A DNA stretch of 64,000 nt. It comes from Malikia sp. GTDB lineage: Bacteria > Pseudomonadota > Gammaproteobacteria > Burkholderiales > Burkholderiaceae_C. The stretch is from NCBI RefSeq assembly GCF_028687635.1, contig NZ_JAQTZS010000004.1, positions 1 through 64,000 of the forward strand, read 5' to 3'. The notes below the pieces were generated by a model. That model did not search any database. It saw only the letters and a list, made by a program, of their open reading frames with translations, and was not told the origin of the DNA. A program made the position numbers and the translations under genes. Positions 8,642 to 49,071 of the stretch are shown here, piece after piece; position 1 is the stretch's first letter; each line of letters begins with the position of its first letter.

Positions 8642-8701
8642 ATGACTGAAACCATAGCCAAGGCCCCCAAAGTGGGCTTCGTCAGCCTGGGTTGCCCGTG
8701 A
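8642..8701 (+). pseudogene. rimO: 5' fragment of rimO cut off by prophage
   Basis: Nineteen codons, MTETIAKAPKVGFVSLGCP, then TGA. This is the host's native RimO N-terminus up to the first cluster-binding cysteine and proline. The next bases belong to the prophage. The rest of rimO lies at 46799-48116 and is now joined to a phage-encoded start. A GGGG element 3 nt upstream and a GACAAT box suggest that the original initiation signals are still here, so a 19-aa peptide could still be made. Confidence 0.93.
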
Positions 8702-13717: not shown

Positions 13718-14179
13718 TCACGCGACTCGGTTTTCGGCGTCCGGAGTGTCGCCGGCGCTGGCTTGCTGCAACTTCTTTAGCGTCGCTCCTGCTTCTTCCA
13801 AGGTGGCTTGACCATTTAGCCACTTGATCATGACTCCACGGCCTGCATCCTGTAGCAAGGGAGAAAGGCCGTTGATGGCAGCCTGAACCTCTGCCAGCGC
13901 ACCTTCTATGCCGCGCGGGGCAGGCATAGACCGGATGACGGCAGAGGAAGCTTTGGCGGTCGGTGTCATGTCTCCCTCGCCGGTGGCGAGCCAAACTGCG
14001 TCAACCTCGCAGGCGATGGCAATCTGGACGGTGAACGCTGATTCGTAGGCTGATGACTCGATCTGAGAAATGTTGGACTGGGACACACCCACTGCTGCAG
14101 CAAGCTGACGCTGGTTCAGCTTTGCGTGCCTGCGGGCGTCTTTCACGCGTTTTCCGAAGTCTGTTGGCATGCGGCCCAT
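13718..14179 (-). CDS. XRE-family phage repressor (CI-like, no peptidase domain)
   Basis: 153 aa from the ATG at 14179 (MGRMPTDFGKRV), chosen because AAGGTAGG lies just upstream; ATGs at 14209 or 14311 are possible. The helix-turn-helix is clear: KLNQRQLAAAVGVSQSNISQIES. The C-terminal half lacks an S24/LexA-like serine protease, so RecA-stimulated self-cleavage is not expected; induction may need an antirepressor. It is divergent from the Cro-like gene and shares TAAGA/TCTTA sites with it. Confidence 0.8.
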   Translation of the reverse strand: MGRMPTDFGKRVKDARRHAKLNQRQLAAAVGVSQSNISQIESSAYESAFTVQIAIACEVDAVWLATGEGDMTPTAKASSAVIRSMPAPRGIEGALAEVQAAINGLSPLLQDAGRGVMIKWLNGQATLEEAGATLKKLQQASAGDTPDAENRVA

Positions 14180-14214
14180 GCTGCCTACCTTGTCGATCAT
14201 AGCGCTCATGCGTT

Positions 14215-14233
14215 TAAGAAGTTGTCTTATAAT
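14215..14233 (+). promoter_or_regulatory. Rightward early promoter and operator
   Basis: A perfect TATAAT at 14228-14233 ends 6 nt before the cro-like ATG at 14240. It overlaps the inverted repeat TAAGA-AGTTG-TCTTA (14215-14229), which carries the same half-sites as the leftward operator but with a shorter spacer. Transcription would start at or next to the ATG, giving a leaderless message. No good -35 box is seen. Confidence 0.65.
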
Positions 14234-14239
14234 TTGTGG

Positions 14240-14449
14240 ATGGACTGGAAATATGTCATCGACAGAGCACAGGATCGACACAAACTGAATCAGCGTCAGC
14301 TCGCCGTGCACGCTGGATGCACACAGTCAGCCATATCGCAGCTCTACAACAGCAAGGCCGTAGATCCGCGCTACAGCATTGGAGCCAAGCTCATTGAGAT
14401 GGCAAGTACCGAGCCGGATGTCGTCGAGGCAGACAAGGCTGGGTTGTGA
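14240..14449 (+). CDS. Cro-like helix-turn-helix protein, 69 aa
   Basis: Small XRE-type DNA-binding protein: HKLNQRQLAVHAGCTQSAISQ is the helix-turn-helix, and the stretch resembles that of the facing repressor. Position, size and divergent layout are those of Cro. The track's longer start (14126) would run through the operator. With TATAAT so close, the message probably has no ribosome binding site. Confidence 0.75.
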   Translation: MDWKYVIDRAQDRHKLNQRQLAVHAGCTQSAISQLYNSKAVDPRYSIGAKLIEMASTEPDVVEADKAGL

Positions 14450-14543: not shown

Positions 14544-15011
14544 ATGCAATTGCTCGACGCCGCCTACCACACCGTTCACGACTACCCCGGCGGCGCGCCA
14601 TCGCTGGCCCCGCGCATGGGCAAGAGCCCCCATACCCTGAACCACGAGGTCACCGGCAACGGCAGCGCCAAGTTCGGCTTGGTTGACGCGGTCAAGACCT
14701 GCCAGCTGACGGGCGACTACCGCATCCTGTACGCCTTCGCCGAGGCCTGCGGTCACGTCTGCATCCCCATGCCGGCCGATTCTGCAGCAGATGCCCAGGG
14801 AGTGCTGCACCAGATGGCCGAAGCCTCACGCGAGTTCTCGGAGCTGTGCGCCGAGGTCTGCACCTCGGCCGCCGACGGCCACATCAGCGACAACGAGCTC
14901 GAGCGCATCGGTCGCGAGCGGCTTGACCTCATGGGGGCACTGGCCCGACTGGGCGAGGCGGTGCTGTCCCTGAACCAGGCTGGCAAGCCGCGCCATCTGC
15001 GGGGGGAGTGA
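14544..15011 (+). CDS. Phage regulatory protein, CII-like family (PF06892-type)
   Basis: 155 aa. The N-terminal part AAYHTVHDYPGGAPSLAPRM with GKSPHTLNHEVTGN and TGDYRILYAFAEACG fits the phage CII-type regulatory family, which has a helix-turn-helix and activates or modulates the lysogeny decision. The C-terminal half is helical (ELERIGRERLDLMGALARLG) and may oligomerise. It is the second gene of the rightward early region. Confidence 0.75.
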   Translation: MQLLDAAYHTVHDYPGGAPSLAPRMGKSPHTLNHEVTGNGSAKFGLVDAVKTCQLTGDYRILYAFAEACGHVCIPMPADSAADAQGVLHQMAEASREFSELCAEVCTSAADGHISDNELERIGRERLDLMGALARLGEAVLSLNQAGKPRHLRGE

Positions 15012-41174: not shown

Positions 41175-42605
41175 TCAGGTGGCCAGGGCCAGGCTGGCCT
41201 TGGCGCTGGCGCGCTGGGCGCGCAGCTCGGCGCGCGAGCGGCCGGTGACGAACAGTGCGTGATCGACCTGGGCGGTCTTGACCAGCAGCCCGGCGGCGTA
41301 GTCGCGTAGCACCTGCTCGGGGTCGATCAACCCTTCGGCCCGGCCACCGAGGGCCGTCGCGCCAGCGCTGTACCGCGTCACGGTCCTCGTGCTGGTCGGG
41401 GCTTTCGGCTGGGCCAATGGCTGACCGATCAGCACCGGGGCGCGCATGGCCTCGATCGACCCGCGAAACAACGCGGCCTGCACTGCGTCGATCTTGGCCC
41501 GTCCCTGGGCCTTGGCGGCGTCATCGATCGGCGCGGGCTGGATAGCGGCGCCCGGCTCGGGGCTGTAGTAGCGGGCAAGGAGGAAGGTGCGGCTGGGCTT
41601 GGCCAGGATGTATTCGGCGGCGGCTTGCGGCGCGATGCCGACCAGGGTGGCTTCGCGGTGCAGGTCCTGCAGGTCGGCGGGCTTGAGCGCCGCCTTGCCG
41701 TGGCGCAACCGCTGGGCATTGACGGCGGCCAGGGTGTCGGGGGCGATGGCCACCGCAATGGCGGGCTGGGCCGGTGCCGGTGGCGTGACGATCGGCGCGG
41801 CAGGGGTCGCCAGTGCAGCCGGTTCAGCTGGTGGTTCAGCTGGTTCAGCCGCTGCACCGACAGCCGGCAGGCAGCCGCGCACCGCGTCCGCTGCCACGGC
41901 GAGCGGCACTTCGCCGCTGGCGTCGGCGGCCTCGATCAGGTCGCGCAGGCTTTGGCCGCTGATCGGCAGGCCCTCGGAGCGAGCTGCGGCGATGTGGGCC
42001 AGCACGTCGTCCACGGCGGTCCTGGGCTGTTCGGTCTTCAGGTCTTCAAAAATCGGGAGGGGAGGGAAGGTGGTCCCCACCAGGTCGGCTGCCGGCGCGC
42101 ACGCATCAGACTCCTCCCCAGAGTAATACCCAGAGAACCACCCAGAGTGTGCGACATCCATGTCATGGGTCTGTGTCGAAAATGTCGTGGGTGGCTGCTC
42201 GGAATGTCTGGGGTCGATGTCGGAAATGTCCGGGGTGTTGGAGTTATCCACAGGCGCGATGGCCTGCTGCGGGAGCTTTTTGCAGGTCTCAGCCTCGGCC
42301 AGGGCCTTGACGTTGATCTTGTACACGAGGCACTTACCGCTCATGCCCACACGGTCCACCAGTCCGAGCCCCACCAGGGCATTGATGTAGCGGCTGGCTT
42401 GTCTCTTGTCCACCCGGCCGCTGCGTCGGCCGATGGTCTCCAGCGACATCGTGGTGCAGCCGGTGTGGCTGTCGCGGCAGCGCGCCAGGGCGATCAGTGC
42501 GAGCTTCTGGCCGCCGGTCAGCAGGATGTCGCAGGCATCGATCAGCGCGACCAGGCCGGGGTGCTTGAGGCCGGCCGCTTCGGGGGCAGTGTTCATGGTC
42601 TGCAT
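41175..42605 (-). CDS. HTH_36-type protein, replication-initiator-like N-terminus, 476 aa
   Basis: Start at 42605 (MQTMNTAPEAAG) behind GGGGTGA; the track ORF runs further up through the Rha-like gene. Residues 10-90 are a winged helix (LTGGQKLALIALARCRDSHT, SLETIGRRSGRVDKRQASRY) as in plasmid/phage replication initiators. The remainder is low-complexity Ala/Pro (270-310) plus a helical C-terminal part. Possible regulator or replication protein; the function is unproven. Separated by 14 bp from both neighbours. Confidence 0.68.
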   Translation of the reverse strand: MQTMNTAPEAAGLKHPGLVALIDACDILLTGGQKLALIALARCRDSHTGCTTMSLETIGRRSGRVDKRQASRYINALVGLGLVDRVGMSGKCLVYKINVKALAEAETCKKLPQQAIAPVDNSNTPDISDIDPRHSEQPPTTFSTQTHDMDVAHSGWFSGYYSGEESDACAPAADLVGTTFPPLPIFEDLKTEQPRTAVDDVLAHIAAARSEGLPISGQSLRDLIEAADASGEVPLAVAADAVRGCLPAVGAAAEPAEPPAEPAALATPAAPIVTPPAPAQPAIAVAIAPDTLAAVNAQRLRHGKAALKPADLQDLHREATLVGIAPQAAAEYILAKPSRTFLLARYYSPEPGAAIQPAPIDDAAKAQGRAKIDAVQAALFRGSIEAMRAPVLIGQPLAQPKAPTSTRTVTRYSAGATALGGRAEGLIDPEQVLRDYAAGLLVKTAQVDHALFVTGRSRAELRAQRASAKASLALAT

Positions 42606-42619
42606 GTCGTCACCCCGCT

Positions 42620-43441
42620 TCAGTGGACCAGGGCCGAGGGGCCTTGGGCGCCGTGCTTGAAGCCGTCCTTGCGCGGGCGGCCAGGCTTGGGCTGGTGGTC
42701 GGGGTCGAAGGACTCGGCGCCGGCGCGGCGCGCGCGCAGGCCATCGAGCGCGGCGCGGGCCAGGGCGCGGGCGAAACCGGTTTCCTCGCCTGGGTGGCTG
42801 GTGCTCCACTCGCTGGTGCCGTTGGTGGCTGATTCCCAGCCACGGCCGAACACGAAGCGCAGCGCATCGTAGGCCTCGTCCTCGTCGTGGGCGGCCAGTT
42901 CGGCGACCTCGCGGAAGAAGGCCTCGCCGCGCTCGATGCCGTCCTCCCACTGGCGGCAGCGCGGCTCTACCGACCAGTTGCGCCAGTGGCCGTTCTTGTC
43001 GTGGCGCGCGAAGCTCAGATCCTCACGCCTGCGGATGGCTGGCTTGGGCAGCGCGGGTGCGGCGACCGGTACCGCCAGCAGCGCCTGGGCACGCCGAGCC
43101 AGCTCGGCCTCCATGCGCTCGAACTCGTCGGCAAAGGCGATCTGGTGCTGCACCGCCTTGGCGCCGGTGAACTTGCCGACCACGAAGTGAAAGCCCTTCT
43201 TGCTCAGGCGGATGACGGGATAGCTGACCGTGCCGCCGTTGGGCTGGGGCAGTTCGACCGATGCCTCCCCGAAATTGGGGAGGCACCAATCAGACGGGCA
43301 TTCGGCCATGCGCTGGCGCACGATGCGCAGCACGTGGTCATGGCGCTTGCCATAGACCCGGGCGATATCGTGGGTGGTGGTAGTGGGTACGCCGTTGACA
43401 ACGGCCAGGACGGGCGCGGGTGCGCTGTGGACGTGGCTCAT
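42620..43441 (-). CDS. Rha-domain protein (antirepressor-like), 273 aa
   Basis: The N-terminal 115 residues match the Rha family: TTTTHDIARVYGKRHDHVLR, CLPNFGEASVELPQPNGGTV, IRLSKKGFHFVVGKFTGAKA, FADEFERMEAEL. The C-terminal part has WRNWSVEPRCRQWEDGIERG and a basic tail. Rha proteins regulate phage lytic growth and belong to the broad antirepressor group. Its start overlaps the preceding 80-aa gene by ATGA, so its translation should depend on that gene, which has a C4-blocked ribosome binding site. Confidence 0.8.
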   Translation of the reverse strand: MSHVHSAPAPVLAVVNGVPTTTTHDIARVYGKRHDHVLRIVRQRMAECPSDWCLPNFGEASVELPQPNGGTVSYPVIRLSKKGFHFVVGKFTGAKAVQHQIAFADEFERMEAELARRAQALLAVPVAAPALPKPAIRRREDLSFARHDKNGHWRNWSVEPRCRQWEDGIERGEAFFREVAELAAHDEDEAYDALRFVFGRGWESATNGTSEWSTSHPGEETGFARALARAALDGLRARRAGAESFDPDHQPKPGRPRKDGFKHGAQGPSALVH

Positions 43442-43680
43442 GCTGCACTGCCTTCCTGCGCGCGGATCGCCCGCTTGAGGTGGGTGCGCGCGCGCATGGC
43501 CTTGCCGAGCGCACGCTCGAGCGTGGCGGTGCTGACGGTGGGCGCATCGATCAGCGCCAGGGCGTCTTGCAGCGCGCAGCTGGCCAGCGTTTGCAGCACG
43601 GCGATGGAGAGGGGGATGCCCGAAGCGGGCAGGGTGGCGGCGCGAACGGGCGCGCGCAGGGTAGTGCGGGTGTCAGCCAT
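43438..43680 (-). CDS. Small protein, first gene of C4-controlled operon (Icd position)
   Basis: 80 aa, helical, basic C-terminus (LGKAMRARTHLKRAIRAQEG). Its ribosome binding site AGGAG (about 6 nt before ATG) lies inside CACTAGGAGCC, which is fully complementary to a loop of the upstream RNA. In phages P1/P7 the gene in this place is icd, translationally coupled to ant. No sequence similarity to Icd is claimed. Confidence 0.6.
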   Translation of the reverse strand: MADTRTTLRAPVRAATLPASGIPLSIAVLQTLASCALQDALALIDAPTVSTATLERALGKAMRARTHLKRAIRAQEGSAA

Positions 43681-43684
43681 GAAT

Positions 43685-43736
43685 GGCTCCTAGTGAACAG
43701 GTTCTCGAACCTGCCGCCCTTGAGGCCAATCAAGGG
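43685..43736 (-). promoter_or_regulatory. C4 target elements a and b
   Basis: Element b (43685-43695) reads CACTAGGAGCC on the minus strand and includes the ribosome binding site of the 80-aa gene. Element a is AGGCCAA's complement TTGGCCT (43723-43729), displayed in the loop of hairpin CCCTTGA-TTGGCC-TCAAGGG (43717-43736). Both have complementary partners in the upstream RNA. Confidence 0.72.
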
Positions 43737-43743
43737 GGAGGCA

Positions 43744-43811
43744 GACCGTGCGGGTTGGCCTACCGGCACTAGGAACCGGCGAACTTCCTTGCGGAAGTTC
43801 CCCACACGGCC
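43744..43811 (-). ncRNA. C4-type antisense RNA (candidate)
   Basis: 68 nt on the minus strand closed by a 10-bp stem GGCCGTGTGG / CCGCACGGTC (43802-43811 with 43744-43753, two G-U pairs). Inside: hairpin GAACTTCC-GCAA-GGAAGTTC with a GNRA loop (43781-43800); hairpin CCGG-TTCCTAGTG-CCGG whose loop is element b'; and AGGCCAA (43755-43761) as element a'. b' GGTTCCTAGTG pairs all 11 bases of the downstream ribosome binding site CACTAGGAGCC (one G-U). This is the C4 layout known from P1/P7 and relatives, where C4 silences icd/ant. Confidence 0.75.
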
Positions 43812-43881
43812 CGCCAATCGTCGGAGCAGGTCGCTCCGTCCATGAGGAATCCGTGTTGCCACTCGCAGCCGTGGACATAAG

Positions 43882-43917
43882 AAAAAGCCGCTGTCGCTGT
43901 GAGGCGGCGCGCGGCTT
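43882..43917 (-). terminator. Hairpin with T-run in the C4 leader
   Basis: Minus strand AGCCGC ... GCGGCT followed by TTTTTC, between the leader promoter and the C4 element. It could be an attenuator, or end a short leader transcript. A 5' hairpin GTGC-TTCG-GCAC (43953-43964) lies further upstream. Apart from these structures 43812-43970 shows no convincing gene; the ORF 43551-43964 overlaps all RNA elements and is probably not translated. Confidence 0.5.
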
Positions 43918-43970
43918 GCTGCGCCTAGTGTAGTCCGGGAGACCAATCCCGTGTGCCGAAGCACGGGGGG

Positions 43971-43999
43971 ATTTTACTGCGCTTTCGCCTGGCTGGGAA
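43971..43999 (-). promoter_or_regulatory. Promoter of the C4 leader and leftward operon
   Basis: Minus strand TTCCCA - 17 bp - TAAAAT. Start of transcription is expected near 43964, at the first base of the UUCG hairpin. It is the only good promoter seen between the lipoprotein gene and the C4 element. Confidence 0.6.
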
Positions 44000-44078
44000 T
44001 CTGTTTTTCAGTGTCGAGCAGGGTTATTTTCTAGGCGAGAATATGAACTTTGAAAATTAGTTAACGCTTGGAGCAGAC

Positions 44079-44483
44079 ATGAAGATTCTTGGACTCATCG
44101 CATCGGTTGCCCTGCTGGCTGGATGCGCCGCTGCCGGCGTCAAGGTCACGGACCAGCAGCTTTCTGTCCTCAAGCCCGGGGAGAGCACAGAGGCGCACGC
44201 CGCCCAGGTACTGGGGAAGCCCACGGTGCGCACCCGCATGGGCGACGGCACCACCATGCTGACTTACAGCTACTACGAGACAAAGGTTCGCCCCGAGACC
44301 TTCATCCCGTTCGCGGGAGCTTTCATCGGTGGCAGCGACTCCCGTTCCACGGTAGTGACCCTGAACTTCGACCAGGAGGGCAAGCTGCTGCGTACCTCCA
44401 GCACGGAGAGCACGTTCGGGTCGGGCATGGGCATCGCGGCCGGCGCGGTGTCGCAAGTGCCGACCGAGCAGCCGAAGCAGTAG
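44079..44483 (+). CDS. Lipoprotein, BamE/SmpA-like, 134 aa
   Basis: Signal peptide with lipobox LLAGC (MKILGLIASVALLAGCAAAG). The mature part (LKPGESTEAHAAQVLGKPTV, MLTYSYYETKVRPETFIPF, VTLNFDQEGKLLRTSSTEST) has the SmpA/BamE/OmlA-like pattern. Located between the leftward operon and the integrase and transcribed opposite to both, it looks like a moron that changes the lysogen surface. GGAGC lies upstream of the ATG; the AT-rich stretch 44003-44060 probably holds its promoter. Confidence 0.75.
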   Translation: MKILGLIASVALLAGCAAAGVKVTDQQLSVLKPGESTEAHAAQVLGKPTVRTRMGDGTTMLTYSYYETKVRPETFIPFAGAFIGGSDSRSTVVTLNFDQEGKLLRTSSTESTFGSGMGIAAGAVSQVPTEQPKQ

Positions 44484-44501
44484 TGATTTCGAGGGGAAAT
44501 C

Positions 44502-45050
44502 ATGGGATTGTGGAACGGACTGAAGGGGGCTGCCGCAGGTGCAGCGCAGGCGCGCGCCGGGCGCAGCGAGGCGAGACAGAAAACGCCGCTCTGGCGGCGC
44601 TGGTGGGTGCTGTTGCTGCTGGCCGTCGTCGGGGTCAACGCGGTGTCGAGCTACCAGCGCTACACCGCGCCGCCCGAGCCAGTACGGACGCCTGAGCAGC
44701 AGGCACAGTGGGAAAAGTACGAGGCCGCAAAAGCCCAGGCTCAGGCTGAGAAGGCAGCCGAGCAGGCCAGGAAGGATGCGGAGCTGCGCGACGTGCTGGT
44801 TTCCGCCATGACCGTCAAGCAGAACCTGAAGAACCCGACCTCGTTCGAGATCGTAGCGGCAACGCTGATGGAGAACGGCAAGCTGTGCATGGTCTACCGG
44901 GGCACCAACAGCTTCAACGCCGTCATCACAGAGTACGCGACGGCCATGGGGCCGGTGGTCAGCCTGTCGTCGAAGCAGTGGAACAAGTACTGCGCGGATC
45001 AGCGCACAAAGGCTGACTACACCGAGCACATTCGGTACGCGCTTCGGTAG
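44502..45050 (+). CDS. Single-TM protein, 182 aa
   Basis: Residues 30-50 form one membrane helix (RWWVLLLLAVVGVNAVSSY), then a charged coiled coil (QWEKYEAAKAQAQAEKAAEQ) and a C-terminal periplasmic domain LKNPTSFEIVAATLMENGKL with two cysteines (LCMVY, KYCAD). It lies 18 bp after the lipoprotein gene, so the two are probably expressed together. Function unknown; superinfection exclusion is possible. Confidence 0.68.
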   Translation: MGLWNGLKGAAAGAAQARAGRSEARQKTPLWRRWWVLLLLAVVGVNAVSSYQRYTAPPEPVRTPEQQAQWEKYEAAKAQAQAEKAAEQARKDAELRDVLVSAMTVKQNLKNPTSFEIVAATLMENGKLCMVYRGTNSFNAVITEYATAMGPVVSLSSKQWNKYCADQRTKADYTEHIRYALR

Positions 45051-46726: not shown

Positions 46727-46764
46727 AATTCACCCCATGACTACGACTGAAAAGACAGACTATA
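46724..46764. promoter_or_regulatory. Divergent signals for rimO and the integrase
   Basis: Plus strand: extended -10 TGTCACAAT (46721-46729) ending 7 nt before the rimO ATG, with no ribosome binding site, suggesting a leaderless message. Minus strand: TATAGT (46759-46764), inside the phage-encoded start of rimO, can serve the integrase gene. No good -35 box is seen for either. Confidence 0.4.
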
Positions 46765-48116
46765 TCCCGCGTATAGGCATGGTATCGCTCGGGTGCCCCA
46801 AGGCGCTGACCGACTCCGAACTGATCCTCACGCAGCTGAGCGCCGAGGGCTACCAGACCAGCAAGACCTTCGACGGCGCGGACATCGTGATCGTCAACAC
46901 CTGCGGCTTCATCGATGACGCCGTCAAGGAAAGCCTCGACACCATCGGCGAAGCGCTGGCCGAAAACGGCAAGGTGATCGTGACCGGCTGCCTGGGCGCC
47001 CGCAAGGACCAGGCCGGCGGCAACATGGTCGAGGGCGTGCACCCCTCGGTGCTGGCCGTCACCGGCCCGCACGCGACCCAGGAGGTGATGGACGCGGTGC
47101 ACAAGCACCTGCCCAAGCCGCATGATCCCTTCCTGGATCTGGTGCCGGCGCAAGGCATCAAGCTGACGCCGCGCCACTACGCCTACCTCAAGATCAGCGA
47201 GGGCTGCAACCACCGTTGCACCTTCTGCATCATCCCCTCGCTGCGCGGCGACCTGGTCAGCCGTCCGATCGGCGAGGTGCTGACCGAGGCGCGCAAGCTG
47301 TTCGAGGCCGGCGTCAAGGAGCTGCTGGTGGTGAGCCAGGACACCTCGGCCTACGGCGTCGATGTCCAGTACCGCACCGGTTTCTGGGATGGCAAGCCGG
47401 TCAAGACCCGCATGTACGATCTGGTCAGGACCCTGGGCGAGCTCGCGCGCGGCTTCGGGGCCTGGGTGCGGCTGCACTATGTCTACCCCTACCCGCATGT
47501 GGACGACATCATCCCGCTGATGGCCGAGGGCCTGTGCCTGCCCTATCTGGATGTGCCGCTGCAGCACAGCCACCCCGATGTGCTCAAGCGCATGAAGCGC
47601 CCGGCCAGCGGCGAGCGGAACCTGGAGCGCATCCAGCGCTGGCGCGAGATCTGTCCCGAGCTGGTGGTGCGCAGCACCTTCATCGCGGGCTTCCCCGGCG
47701 AGACCGAGGAGGAATTCGCCCATCTGCTCGACTTCGTGCGCGAGGCGCAGATCGACCGCGCCGGCTGCTTTGCCTATTCGCCGGTCGATGGCGCCCTGGC
47801 CAACGCCCTGCCGGGCGCGCTGCCCGATGCGCTGCGCGAGGAGCGCCAGGCCCGCTTCATGGAAGTCGCCGAGCAGGTCTCGATCGAACGCCTGCAGCGC
47901 CGTGTCGGCGCCACCATGCAGGTGCTGGTCGACCAGGCGCTCAGCCTGGGCAAGAAGGGCGGGGTGGGGCGCACCTATGCCGACGCGCCCGAGATCGACG
48001 GCGTCGTCCAGCTGCTGCCGCCCGAGAAGGCCAGCAAGACCTACAAGGTCGGCGACTTCATCAAGGCGCGCATCGTCGGCACCCAGGGCCACGACCTGGT
48101 CGGCCAGCCGGTCTGA
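46737..48116 (+). CDS. rimO: Ribosomal protein uS12 methylthiotransferase RimO, hybrid phage/host gene
   Basis: 459 aa. RimO adds a methylthio group to an aspartate of ribosomal protein S12 using radical SAM chemistry. Cluster cysteines: [22 protein letters not shown] for the first cluster and CNHRCTFC for the SAM cluster; a TRAM domain ends the protein. The first 21 residues ([21 protein letters not shown]) come from the prophage, the rest from the host. The native start MTETIAKAPKVGFVSLGCP is stranded at 8642. Confidence 0.95.
46778..46815. other. attR
   Basis: Right junction. Phage sequence ...CGCTCGGGTGCCC passes into host CAAGGCGCTGACC. Core TGCCC (46794-46798) encodes Cys-Pro of the RimO motif SLGCPK. 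The reading frame is kept. Confidence 0.85.
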
Positions 48117-48261: not shown

Positions 48262-48346
<85 letters not shown>

Positions 48347-48407
48347 TTTCAGGGTTTTGTTTCTTGAGATGTTACACAAGGCCGCTTGCATTGACCGCAA
48401 TGAACCT

Positions 48408-48492
<85 letters not shown>

Positions 48493-48553
48493 TTTCAGGG
48501 TTTTGTTTCTTGAGATGTTACACAAGGCCGCTTGCATTGACCGCAATGAACCT

Positions 48554-48638
<85 letters not shown>

Positions 48639-48654
48639 ATCTCAGGAAGCCACT

Positions 48655-48660
48655 ATTATA
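48655..48660 (-). promoter_or_regulatory. -10 box of tRNA-Leu cluster 1
   Basis: TATAAT on the minus strand 17 nt before copy 3. The upstream stretch is A/T-rich but lacks a clear -35. 48661-48802 otherwise shows no gene. Confidence 0.5.
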
Positions 48661-48802
48661 GCCCGGGTTTTTGGTGTTTTTTCCGCTCGCCGAAAATTTT
48701 TTGAATAGGTGGCTGCTGGATGCATTTGGCTGCCGCGCCAGCGCTGCAGGCAACGGTTGGCCGCTTGCCATCAGTGTGCGCCTGTCTTGAGGTCGGAAAA
48801 CG

Positions 48803-48836
48803 AAAAACCCCGCAGACCGTGAGATCTGCAGGGTTT
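48803..48836 (-). terminator. Terminator of tRNA-Leu cluster 2
   Basis: Minus strand AAACCCTGCAGA - TCTCACGG - TCTGCGGGGTTTTT, just after copy 4. Confidence 0.8.
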
Positions 48837-48842
48837 CATGTT

Positions 48843-48927
<85 letters not shown>

Positions 48928-48986
48928 TTTCAGGGTTTGTTTCTTGAGATATCGCACAAAGCATAGCCAACAAGTGCTAAAGTCTT

Positions 48987-49071
<85 letters not shown>

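Follow-up and report, generated by a model that had tools for sequence, protein, structure and literature searches.

The window, i.e. the whole stretch of 64,000 nucleotides of a Malikia sp. contig analysed here, contains on its minus strand near 43.8 kb a structured region for which a C4-type antisense RNA had been proposed. This raises the question whether the region indeed corresponds to a C4 RNA, which genes it may control, and how much of the circuit known from the phages P1 and P7 surrounds it. Our analysis shows that the C4 locus of the window is genuine and complete. It is not unprecedented, and what it chiefly contributes is comparative evidence for the leader sites a1 and b1 and a new reading of the IsrK locus of Salmonella.

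The C4 RNA and its downstream pairing sites

When Infernal was run with the Rfam C4 model (RF01695), as suggested in the original prediction, the minus strand from 43821 to 43734 was matched over the full model (1-87 of 87) above the gathering threshold (cmscan), with a score of 47.3 bits that exceeds the cut-off of 45 bits by 2.3 bits only. Besides tRNAs, C4 was the only family above its Rfam cut-off in the window. Compared with dinucleotide shuffles, none of which was equally good, the predicted fold of this strand (-52.6 kcal/mol) has a z of -5.4. Three parts of the RNA are needed in what follows:

43740..43815, minus strand: C4 RNA unit (76 nt), closed by a stem of 15 bp and containing a GCAA hairpin, the b' hairpin and a' (RF01695, fold, compensatory pairs)
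43762..43780, minus strand: hairpin 2 of C4, the loop region of which is b' GGUUCCUAGUG (43777-43767) (fold and pairing)
43755..43761, minus strand: a' AGGCCAA, unpaired within C4 (fold and pairing)

A closed unit with a GNRA-capped hairpin had been described. The GCAA loop of hairpin 1 is of this type and the unit is indeed closed, but its size had to be corrected from 68 nt with a 10-bp stem to 76 nt with 15 bp. In an alignment of 22 sequences, compensatory double changes were detected at 10 of the 24 predicted pairs of the stems. C4 RNAs arise from a longer transcript by RNase P processing and have a length of about 77 nt. GG is present at the expected 5' end (43815), in agreement with the motif reported in PMC5320573.

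Downstream of C4, two sites complementary to its unpaired segments were found:

43723..43729, minus strand: a2 TTGGCCT, in a hairpin loop between C4 and b2 (covariation)
43685..43695, minus strand: b2 CACTAGGAGCC, overlapping the ribosome-binding site of ORF80 (pairing and covariation)

Both pairings had been predicted. Between b' and the ribosome-binding site of ORF80, complementarity was seen in a stretch of 11 nt that includes one G-U (shuffle test, p about 0.0005), and a' (43761-43755) matches a2 (43729-43723) in the loop of the downstream hairpin at 7 of 7 positions (p about 0.01); both pairings covary across relatives, as described below.

A leader with a1, b1 and a terminator

The upstream half of the locus was absent from the original description. 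It comprises the following elements:

43971..43999, minus strand: promoter-like site TTCCCA-17-TAAAAT before the leader (consensus match only, 9/12)
43881..43964, minus strand: IsrK-like leader RNA with a1 and b1 (sub-threshold RF01394; approximate transcript start, from the promoter-like site)
43940..43946, minus strand: a1 TTGGTCT, complementary to a' with one G-U (p 0.09 alone; covariation)
43924..43930, minus strand: b1 CACTAGG, complementary to b' at 7 of 7 positions (p 0.17 alone; covariation)
43881..43917, minus strand: intrinsic-terminator-like hairpin AAGCCGC/GCGGCTT followed by TTTCTT, between b1 and C4

The promoter-like site is the only sigma-70-like site between 43400 and 44200, where shuffles gave a mean of 0.0. 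The likeness of the leader to isrK is a resemblance only, since the region 43980-43881 scores 28.9 bits with RF01394, the cut-off being 50. With the c4-a1b1 family (RF03163) no match up to E = 1 was obtained in 43400-44080, despite the presence of a1 and b1 there. In the window by itself, neither a1 nor b1 is significant against shuffles, and both sites are convincing only because they covary across relatives. A hairpin of this terminator-like kind is present in the leader of 30 of 40 C4 loci, compared to 14% of shuffles. Since a leader with a1, b1 and a terminator precedes C4, the P1 layout is complete in the window, with all four pairing sites (a1, b1, a2 and b2) at the locus.

Covariation of the four pairing sites

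Additional C4 loci came from 101 relatives and from 369 genomes of the class. For each locus, the pairing scores of a' and b' with the regions on either side of it were compared to their scores with the corresponding regions of every other locus. In a set of 40 loci including P1 and Gifsy-1, own pairing exceeded swapped pairing with z values of 14.0 for a2, 16.0 for b2, 12.7 for a1 and 11.3 for b1. An independent set of 24 further loci gave 11.8, 13.6, 10.2 and 10.9, respectively, and none of 20,000 permutations came near the observed own-pairing scores. Among the a' alleles are CTGCTAA, CTTCCTG, ATTCTCAC and CGACCAA, and each of them has its matching site. Together with the covariance-model score, covariation at all four sites rules out a chance origin of the locus.

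The genome from which the window originates harbours four C4 loci, all different in both a' and b'. The idea that C4 loci of one genome avoid a shared specificity was dropped, since no significant departure from shuffled genome labels was detected. A search of viral contigs for the a2/b2 combination of the window gave no match.

The operon behind C4 and the prophage

The genes downstream of b2 are arranged as follows:

43438..43680, minus strand: ORF80, 80 aa, first gene under C4, in the position of Icd (without family match)
42620..43441, minus strand: pRha-family protein, antirepressor candidate, in ATGA overlap with ORF80 (PF09669, E 6.5e-14; phrog_518 and anti-repressor phrogs)
41175..42640, minus strand: replication-initiation O-like protein behind rha (phrog_391, E 6.7e-9)

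By its ATGA overlap, the ORF80-rha pair has the translationally coupled layout expected of a C4 locus. The original prediction of an icd/ant-like coupled pair thus holds for the coupling, but not for the identity of the genes: ORF80 was rejected as an Icd homologue for lack of a family match, so that the term "Icd-like" applies to its position alone, and the second gene encodes a pRha protein and not P1 Ant. According to its family annotation, the pRha protein is a candidate antirepressor. The open frame of the O-like gene is longer than the interval given above, and its true start probably lies near 42.63 kb. A frame of 62 codons (43690-43878, minus strand) starts just behind the leader terminator, spans C4 and stops inside b2; its stop is located 9 nt before the start codon of ORF80.

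The operon belongs to a prophage bounded by the interrupted start of rimO (8642-8701) and by the rimO copy at 46737. A large serine recombinase is encoded at the right end of the prophage, and genes for terminase, portal, capsid, tail and lysis functions are retained. Long direct repeats were considered as prophage ends and none were found; the ends were therefore taken from the interrupted rimO. Of the original rimO start a 19-codon remnant is left at 8642-8701, while the copy at 46737-48116 differs in its N-terminus as far as the SLGCP motif, this part being apparently phage-supplied. The same prophage contains the presumed target of the antirepressor and, at 44079-45050, two genes for a BamE-like lipoprotein and a 182-aa protein. 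The latter two lie between the C4 operon and the integrase, are read in the direction that leads away from the operon, and are possibly accessory genes.

13718..14311, minus strand: CI-like HTH repressor, presumed antirepressor target (HTH_19/HTH_3, no S24 peptidase match)

A CI/Cro-like switch had been placed at 13.5-14.4 kb. Its CI-like component was recovered, while Cro was not identified; a CII-like protein is encoded at 14544-15011. As the CI-like protein has no S24 peptidase match, it is plausible that an antirepressor, and not RecA-stimulated cleavage, controls it, judging from what is known of such repressor families. Beside the prophage, five tRNA-Leu (CAG) genes lie in a row (48262-49071) with a spacing of about 145-290 bp.

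Proposed mechanism and alternatives

Based on the observed sequence, the predicted structure, the four pairings with their covariation and the operon layout, the locus is very probably a complete P1/P7-type C4 antisense-RNA immunity module, in which C4 would be expressed, processed and repressive and the pRha protein would act as antirepressor. Transcription from the promoter upstream of 43.97 kb would yield a short leader, mostly stopping at the terminator at 43.88 kb, while read-through RNA would be processed to a C4 RNA of about 76 nt. By pairing via b' with the ribosome-binding site of ORF80 and via a' with the loop just upstream, C4 would block translation of ORF80 and, via the ATGA coupling, also that of the Rha-type antirepressor; it may in addition lower transcription of the replication gene behind rha. 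The block of the antirepressor would keep the CI-like repressor active and the phage dormant. If C4 were scarce or titrated, for example by the a1/b1 copies of the leader, the antirepressor would be made and should inactivate the CI-like repressor, its assumed target. The leader could thus serve as a decoy for C4 or, alternatively, as a site of C4-promoted termination.

A free antisense RNA would be unnecessary if the leader, the C4 region and the ribosome-binding site folded in one transcript as an mRNA attenuator that acts in cis only. All four sites are located on the same transcript, and published native gels and reporter data for isrK-orf45-anrP of Gifsy-1 were explained by such a fold ("structure A"). 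Nevertheless, we consider it improbable, given that the C4 region by itself folds as a compact closed unit with compensatory changes in its stems, that a processed RNA of the C4 region (STnc1160, orf45') was seen in Salmonella, and that processed C4 RNAs are known in P1/P7 and Acinetobacter. Still less probable is that the small leader ORF (62 aa, 43878-43690) is the conserved element and that ORF80 is controlled through translational coupling to it, as was proposed for orf45. The frame exists and ends in b2 shortly before ORF80, and orf45 of Gifsy-1 likewise begins at the 5' edge of its C4, but comparable frames are irregular or absent in relatives, the ORF has no family match, and conservation concerns the RNA structure and the pairings and not the reading frame. 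To a decayed copy, which would no longer regulate anything, we assign an equally small probability: the score near the cut-off and the loss of parts in some co-resident or related copies would be in line with decay, whereas the stems and all four pairings are intact, as are the start codon, the two coupled ORFs and the structural genes of the prophage.

Comparison with P1/P7 and P4

With C4 of P1/P7, the locus shares the covariance-model match, the closed two-hairpin stem, the pairing of b' with a ribosome-binding site and of a' with a loop, the leader sites a1 and b1, and the coupled small ORF and antirepressor gene. The P1 record annotates the order a1, b1, c4, a2, b2, icd and ant1, and the order of sites is the same in the window. 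In contrast to P1/P7, the window contains a serine-integrase prophage in another host, encodes a pRha protein instead of P1 Ant and an ORF80 without a match to Icd, and has a replication-initiator-like gene following in the same operon. A textbook P1/P7 immunity circuit thus appears in an unrelated serine-integrase prophage. By description, it can also be likened to the CI RNA of the satellite phage P4 with seqA and seqC, a processed antisense RNA with upstream and downstream targets in the control of lytic or replication functions (PMC4825925). As a difference, CI RNA acts by premature transcription termination.

A new reading of the Gifsy-1 IsrK locus

In the Salmonella prophage Gifsy-1 (L040:34131-34329, minus strand), c4-a1b1 (48.1 bits) overlaps isrK (79.3 bits) and is followed by C4 (69.0 bits), all three above their cut-offs and ahead of a gene annotated as similar to antirepressor. 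Thus, judged by its sequence, the IsrK-orf45-anrP locus of Salmonella (RF01394, RF03163, RF01695) is a C4 locus, and the order of its terminated leader with a1/b1, C4, a2/b2 and antirepressor gene equals that of the window. It differs in that the leader of the window is below the isrK cut-off and without a c4-a1b1 match, and in that the antirepressor gene of Gifsy-1 lies directly behind C4, without an intervening ORF80-like gene.

With the start of the isrK match set as +1, the published mutations G28A and G31A (PMC4825925) map to a1 TTGGCGT (+26 to +32) and C159U and C162U (PMC4825925) to a' ACGCCAA (+158 to +164). The letters at positions 28, 31, 159 and 162 are identical to the published ones, and the published compensatory pairs G28/C162 and G31/C159 are exact base pairs between a1 and a'. 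The single mutations were reported to raise basal antirepressor translation from 4 to 93 (G28A), 218 (G31A), 926 (C159U) and 484 (C162U) units, and the compensatory double mutants gave 224 and 327 units (PMC4825925). The stronger effect of the a' mutations fits the C4 model because they break the pairing with both a1 and a2. By the identification of the Salmonella locus as C4, the published mutants become in vivo evidence for the a1/a' pairing, and the old question of the role of a1/b1, decoy or premature-termination site, is now directly testable.

The IsrK locus was published as a dual small and messenger RNA and not as C4 (PMC4825925). In the main text of that paper the terms "C4 RNA" and "bacteriophage P1" are absent, while CI/seqA of P4 is discussed as a structural homologue and the idea of titration is raised. 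According to the same paper, co-expression of STnc1160 enhances the growth arrest mediated by IsrK, an observation that argues against simple titration. In the open-access literature we found no earlier paper linking the IsrK locus to C4; in a Xylella table, C4 and isrK are listed side by side.

C4 loci in relatives

In relatives, C4 occurs together with antirepressors of at least five families and also with replication initiators. The gene behind it encodes a pRha, AntA, Bro-N, P22_AR_N or KilA-N protein, and in one genome (G043) a replication-initiator-like HTH_36 gene, not an antirepressor gene, directly follows C4 at 7 of the 12 C4 loci. Three of these calls were made by family search (L025, L030, L038) and four by sequence likeness (L028, L031, L032, L034).

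Two genomes of the same genus as the window contain stand-alone C4 genes (L075:8913-9112 in G002 and L076:9041-9240 in G003), in which a 9-codon ORF and an intrinsic terminator replace the antirepressor. Both are located in islands downstream of a tyrosine integrase, the G002 copy near AbiLi-like and DUF4760 genes and the G003 copy near MqsR, HipA and TOTE-type genes. The b' of the G002 copy is identical to that of the window, and a phage with a2/b2 matching this stand-alone copy was found neither in 301 family genomes nor in viral contigs. A third candidate in G003 (L117, G003:C36:45465-45566, minus strand) was rejected because only the mini-ORF and the terminator remain, without a C4 match.

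In a further genome, four tandem C4 cassettes were detected within 1.4 kb (G361:C9, L072:1640-3150). Their b' is nearly constant, while the four a' are different, each with its own matching a1 and a2. The ORFs between the cassettes look truncated.

It is conceivable, though on balance rather unlikely, that the C4 cassette is a mobile, re-targetable immunity module beyond P1-like control. The terminated, IsrK-like leader would then be an inbuilt decoy, titrating C4 and triggering induction, and in relatives C4 would gate replication initiators directly, occur in tandem arrays with diversified a', and act from islands with defence-type genes as RNA-based superinfection immunity. The last idea is not new, because it had been proposed before for Acinetobacter that C4-derived RNAs are used against incoming phage (PMC5320573). 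The Group 1 C4-like sRNAs of Acinetobacter baumannii have the C4 fold, a variable a' and many copies per genome, and are apparently processed at the GG motif (PMC5320573). They were discussed as possibly retargeted host sRNAs (PMC5320573), whereas C4 of the window keeps its own phage operon.
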